This document shows, piece by piece, positions 37,699 through 37,837 of a stretch of DNA of 38,041 nucleotides. The notes under the pieces were generated by a model, which saw only the letters and a list, made by a program, of their open reading frames with translations, had not been told where the DNA came from and did no database searches. Positions within the stretch are counted from its first letter, which is position 1. Each line of letters begins with the position of its first letter. The stretch is from Bacteroidales bacterium. Lineage in GTDB: Bacteria; Bacteroidota; Bacteroidia; Bacteroidales; UBA932. The translations under genes and the position numbers were made by a program. The DNA is taken from contig JAILCZ010000005.1 of the NCBI GenBank assembly GCA_024689985.1, forward strand, positions 1 to 38,041, in the 5' to 3' direction.

Positions 37699-37733
37699 AA
37701 AAAAACGACCCGCCAACTTGAATTGGCAGGTCG
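37699..37733 (-). terminator. Intrinsic terminator in the cysK leader (attenuator)
   Basis: Minus strand CGACCTGCCAA-TTCAAG-TTGGCGGGTCG (11 bp, one G-U) followed by T7, located 32 nt upstream of the cysK ATG. Confidence 0.9.
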
Positions 37734-37762
37734 CTACGCTGTATGAATTTTTCGGTTCTTTT

Positions 37763-37837
37763 CTACACGCGTGCTGTACCGCACCAATTCATTTGGCCGG
37801 CCTTACAACAACAGTATGTAGAATAAAACTTGTTCAT
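37763..37837 (-). CDS. Cysteine-rich leader peptide (24 aa) upstream of cysK
   Basis: ATG AAC AAG TTT TAT TCT ACA TAC TGT TGT TGT AAG GCC GGC CAA ATG AAT TGG TGC GGT ACA GCA CGC GTG TAG = MNKFYSTYCCCKAGQMNWCGTARV; lies between a consensus promoter and an intrinsic terminator. Confidence 0.85.
   Translation of the reverse strand: MNKFYSTYCCCKAGQMNWCGTARV

Follow-up and report, generated by a model that had tools for sequence, protein, structure and literature searches.

The classical amino-acid attenuators of Escherichia coli (trp, his, leu, thr and phe) use the same mechanism as the one proposed here. In Rhodobacterales the uORFC-8-2 motif, a uORF with two tandem Cys codons and a terminator, is located upstream of cysS, and ribosome-mediated attenuation has been proposed for it (PMC8632094). 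Polycysteine leader ORFs of Actinobacteria are described without terminators (PMC1262725), and those of mycobacteria have been assigned to translation attenuation (Canestrari et al. 2020, as cited in PMC13236596). Rfam contains a trp-named leader from Bacteroidota, the Bacteroid-trp RNA (RF01692; PMC2864571), leader-peptide attenuators were noted before amino-acid biosynthesis operons in Flavobacterium psychrophilum (PMC9723704), and such attenuators are suspected in Bacteroidota (PMC9723704; PMC7366714). No report of the cysK leader family described here was found in the open literature; a 2010 comparative survey, cited in PMC4833913, may cover part of it. The attenuator type is known, and the cysK leader family appears to be undescribed.

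The window analyzed here is a DNA stretch of 38,041 nucleotides and makes up contig C4 of a 1.77-Mb genome, itself incomplete; genomes with a closely related cysK include that of Candidatus Cryptobacteroides onthequi and those of further gut and rumen Bacteroidales. The minus strand of the window carries an element, flanked by a predicted Bacteroidetes-type promoter at 37886-37856 and by cysK at 37667-36753, that we interpret from sequence comparison and folding, with a probability of about 0.9, as a ribosome-mediated transcription attenuator sensing the supply of cysteinyl-tRNA and controlling cysK-cysE. The features are:

37856 to 37886, minus strand: predicted Bacteroidetes-type promoter, with -33 TTTG (37886-37883), a 19 nt spacer and -7 TATATTTG (37863-37856)
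37763 to 37837, minus strand: leader ORF of 24 aa, MNKFYSTYCCCKAGQMNWCGTARV followed by a stop, read from the sequence; a Cys-rich leader ORF is found at the same position in about 40 related loci
37805 to 37813, minus strand: regulatory codons TGT TGT TGT, read from the sequence; 2-6 Cys codons are present here in 41 of 41 aligned loci
37793 to 37801, minus strand: strand 1, GCCGGCCAA, predicted to pair with 37787-37778 in the 1:2 hairpin given by unguided RNAalifold
37784 to 37791, minus strand: core of strand 2, TGAATTGG, 5' half of the predicted antiterminator, the pairing of which reaches to about 37779
37719 to 37726, minus strand: core of strand 3, CCAATTCA, 3' half of the predicted antiterminator and at the same time part of the terminator (loop and upper end of the 5' arm)
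37704 to 37735, minus strand: predicted intrinsic terminator hairpin, strands 3:4
37699 to 37705, minus strand: U tract of the terminator, read from the sequence
36753 to 37667, minus strand: cysK, cysteine synthase A, the putative regulated gene (TIGR01139, 437 bits, above cutoff; PF00291)
35991 to 36749, minus strand: the operon's second gene, encoding a cysE-like serine O-acetyltransferase (TIGR01172 at 148 bits and E 2.4e-43, short of the curated cutoff)

The leader ORF runs from the ATG at 37837 to the TAG at 37763, and its three consecutive Cys codons are cognate to the product of the operon, cysK-cysE, the enzymes of which jointly convert serine to cysteine. The cysE-like gene scores 139.6 against the EpsC model (cutoff 150) and, within the DNA examined, comes after cysK in 34 of 40 leader loci. 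Just past the operon, a tRNA gene is located on the plus strand (35493-35564; Rfam RF00005, 58.8 bits).

When 101 genus genomes were searched for DNA similar to the leader, only the window itself matched, and homology was therefore traced through cysK. Close or distant cysK homologues were present in 84 of 200 genus genomes, and upstream regions were taken from the close copies and from copies in named genomes. About two dozen unique upstream regions contained a short ORF with a run of cysteines (CCC, CCCC or CCCCC) followed by a terminator. A first alignment comprised 16 of these leaders; RNAalifold, run without a supplied structure, returned two hairpins, the 1:2 hairpin starting at the last Cys codon and the terminator. 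A covariance model built from this alignment of cysK upstream regions was used to search 300 genomes of the genus, 300 of the family and 395 of the order. For the genus matches, several of which came from genomes absent from model training, cysK was found immediately downstream in 29 of the 30 loci read, the remaining locus lying beside a cysK fragment. In a second genus (g16) the element precedes cysK in nine genomes. Lower-scoring matches elsewhere (below 38 bits) were ordinary chance terminators without Cys ORFs, and the order-wide search returned nothing else, with the single exception of L212. One genus genome contains a second leader copy (G001:C74:1-114), where the contig end cuts off the downstream gene.

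Many cysK genes of the genus have no leader, and on the cysK tree presence of the leader switches 11 times or more. L013, L018 and L031 are among the loci without it. L013 retains a terminator with the conserved CCTGCCAATC arm and has no Cys leader; judged by this sequence, it is likely a decayed leader copy. Linkage of cysK and cysE was considered as a cause of leader absence and rejected, since cysE is next to cysK, or close by, whether or not a leader is present.

Transcription is predicted to start at about 37850, about 12 nt upstream of the leader ATG. An exact TAnnTTTG was found upstream in 18 of 41 leaders, compared to 6% per shuffled sequence, and was accompanied by a -33 TTG in 16 of these 18. 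In several species only 6-18 nt separate the -7 box from the start of the leader ORF; judged by sequence, this transcript may be wholly or almost leaderless, like the mycobacterial polycysteine ORFs. A 10-nt inverted repeat, TTTTCGGTTC / GAACCGAAAA, is located at 37875-37866 and 37758-37749 of the window; its first copy sits between the promoter boxes and should be absent from the leader transcript.

The short distance to the promoter would also fit cysteine control at the level of translation or through Rho, as reported for the mycobacterial polycysteine ORFs; the stalled ribosome would then act by polarity or open the downstream start site, the hairpin being incidental. The mycobacterial cys leaders have no terminators (PMC1262725), and translation attenuation is summarised for them in PMC13236596. 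Nearly all leaders examined here, however, have a strong intrinsic terminator followed by a U tract, and covariation links strand 2 to the terminator arm (see below), which a translation-level or Rho-linked model does not need. We consider such a model very unlikely. Transcription attenuation, in contrast, employs the terminator, which is present between leader ORF and first gene and conserved in the alignments; in the window it comprises 13 pairs (-22.2 kcal/mol) followed by seven T.

A structured 5' leader with a terminator would also be seen in a metabolite riboswitch or a T-box, in which the Cys codons would be decorative. However, no Rfam model, T-box included, reached its gathering score near the leader (the best match below threshold scored 22 bits, the gathering score being 60), and the alignments contain no aptamer-like conserved core beyond strands 1-4. 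The Cys codons found in every aligned locus also keep a near-fixed distance from strand 2, which leaves this explanation with next to no probability.

A transcription attenuator requires an antiterminator, and the earlier note had placed one at TGAATTGG (37791-37784, minus strand), inside the leader ORF and starting 14 nt past position 37805, where the third Cys codon ends; the sequence bears out both the position and the distance. An exact 8-nt complement, CCAATTCA, exists as claimed but is located at 37726-37719, since the site given for it, 37724-37717, reads AATTCAAG. With the uncorrected coordinates no 2:3 pairing was obtained in a folding scan, and the corrected ones were used instead. 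At its true site CCAATTCA indeed takes in the terminator loop together with the upper end of the 5' arm and would compete with the terminator. The pairing continues beyond the 8 nt with two G-U pairs, one mismatch and more pairs, giving a duplex of -15.6 kcal/mol. In dinucleotide shuffles of the post-Cys leader an exact complement of at least 8 nt to arm and loop arose by chance in 0.88%. The match in one genome alone is thus modest, suggestive sequence evidence, and conservation was needed to decide.

For the comparative analysis the pairing was extended to ten pairs. In the first alignment 89.3% of the cells were paired, compared to 81.1 ± 1.3 in shuffled alignments (0 of 500 reached the observed value), and slid registers of the antiterminator helix gave 21-44%. 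Two-sided changes were found at six of the ten pairs. A second test set consisted of 41 loci aligned to the covariance model, the structure of which excludes the antiterminator helix; here the pairing was 0.897 versus 0.813 ± 0.012 after block swap, and 0 of 5,000 reached it. These shuffle-based statistics are inflated by the relatedness of the sequences, and part of the constraint is shared since strand 3 pairs with both strand 2 and strand 4. One pair position varies between U-A, C-G, A-U and G-C, with at least 11 changes on the cysK tree. On these comparative sequence data we regard the pairing as settled and real. The compensatory changes (the earlier note had counted a lack of covariation as refuting) also indicate that antiterminator and terminator are mutually exclusive via their common strand 3. 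Chance complementarity beside an ordinary terminator without switching, for which the 8-nt match alone leaves about 0.9% in the two segments, is barely credible because it is contradicted by the covariation, with compensatory changes across about 30 diverse leaders, and by the loss of pairing when terminator arms are swapped (10.7 pairs native, 6.9 swapped).

The position of strand 2 relative to the Cys codons is likewise conserved. In most species strand 2 begins 15 nt past the first base of the final Cys codon, which is also the median over the 41 loci (range 5-20). Toeprints place the edge of a ribosome whose A site holds the last Cys codon about 13 nt beyond that codon, and the 15-nt spacing is what would be expected for the edge of a ribosome stalled there. 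Past the Cys codons, the reading frame is displaced against strand 2 in some species, with the RNA retained; it is thus the RNA, not the peptide, that is conserved.

Folding with and without a ribosome-occluded segment, as the earlier note had proposed, showed that the pairing depends on ribosome position. The folded transcripts ended just past strand 3, and the ribosome footprint was held single-stranded. The median probability of the 2:3 pairing was 0.98 with the first and 0.95 with the last Cys codon in the A site, 0.07 without ribosome and 0.00 at the stop codon. The corresponding values for the window were 0.98, 0.98, 0.08 and 0.16, the last two becoming 0.10 and 0.11 when the transcript ends were slightly altered. 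At the stop codon the probability depends on the footprint, with 0.83 if 11 nt downstream are protected and 0.08-0.11 for 13-15 nt. Three leaders (L171, L173 and L177) had a fixed-register pairing probability of zero because their registers are shifted; a register-free count resolved them and found switching in 26 of 26 diverse leaders. By computation, structure choice thus tracks ribosome position, and a Cys-stalled ribosome leaves strand 2 free to form the antiterminator, as had been claimed.

A ribosome reaching the TAG had been suggested to clear or mask TGAATTGG. The antiterminator is indeed lost in this state, but not through masking, since the footprint (about 37783-37753) misses TGAATTGG. 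The OFF state is assigned in the model to a local hairpin missed by the earlier note, 37801-37793 with 37787-37778, which re-forms after the ribosome departs. Without ribosome this 1:2 hairpin has a probability of 0.85 in the window, and strand 1 conceals strand 2 whenever the ribosome does not cover strand 1. At equilibrium the full-length RNA favours the terminator (P 0.83-0.99), also when a ribosome is stalled on it; the switch must therefore act kinetically, during transcription.

Covariation, the conserved spacing at the edge of the Cys-stalled ribosome and ribosome-masked folding together support the claimed competition of 2:3 and 3:4, and we infer the following course of stalling, termination and cysteine response. 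RNA polymerase would transcribe the leader ORF with a ribosome trailing. If Cys-tRNA is scarce, the ribosome would stall at TGT TGT TGT and cover strand 1 (37801-37793); strand 2 (37791-37784) would emerge free and pair with strand 3 (37726-37719), so that the terminator is blocked and cysK-cysE are transcribed. With plentiful cysteine the ribosome would pass strand 2 and complete the leader ORF. Strand 2 would first be under the ribosome and then be closed by strand 1, leaving strand 3 free to form the terminator with strand 4.

A screen covering 138 upstream regions, taken from other Bacteroidales and from bacteria less closely related, revealed Cys-rich leader ORFs with terminators before cysK (L289, L290, L298) and before cysE-cysK (L304, L305, L308; L305 is the same place as L212). 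These loci belong to six different other Bacteroidales families and are unrelated in sequence to the window leader. The best duplexes of leader and arm in them have energies between -9 and -15.5 kcal/mol, those of L290 and L298 being the clearest. In at least six further families the order of parts is that of the window: Cys codons first, next a possible antiterminator, last a terminator. This suggests either that the arrangement was invented repeatedly or that the RNA turns over very quickly around a geometry that stays fixed. Whether cysteine attenuation by intrinsic termination is widespread, and previously undescribed, in Bacteroidales is in our estimate an even bet.

The element would provide a covariation-supported cysteine sensor for abundant, hardly studied gut and rumen bacteria, and a covariance model now exists for a family absent from Rfam. 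The near-constant 15-nt spacing from the last Cys codon to strand 2 is a natural measure of the ribosome edge used by such switches, and the patchy leader presence within one genus is a useful case for gain and loss of attenuators.

RF01692 and the leaders of F. psychrophilum resemble the element in being leader elements of Bacteroidota; they concern other or unspecified amino acids, and no Rfam model matches here. The uORFC-8-2 motif shares the tandem Cys codons in a uORF and the intrinsic terminator. According to the description in the accessible part of PMC8632094 it is set apart by preceding cysS, encoding Cys-tRNA synthetase, whereas the element here precedes cysK; that text reports no antiterminator covariation, which was found for the cysK leader. 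With the polycysteine ORFs of Actinobacteria the element has in common runs of Cys codons in short ORFs (leaderless in mycobacteria) before cysteine genes. It differs by its terminator, translation attenuation or Rho having been suggested there. The likeness to the E. coli trp, his, leu, thr and phe attenuators extends to the leader ORF with codons for the product, strands 1-4, the alternative of 2:3 and 3:4 and the cognate operon. In contrast to these, the codons here are those for cysteine, the host belongs to the Bacteroidales and the predicted 5' UTR of the leader ORF is very short; moreover, strand 1 of the window is located just past its regulatory codons, and that of relatives overlaps a single one of theirs, the last.
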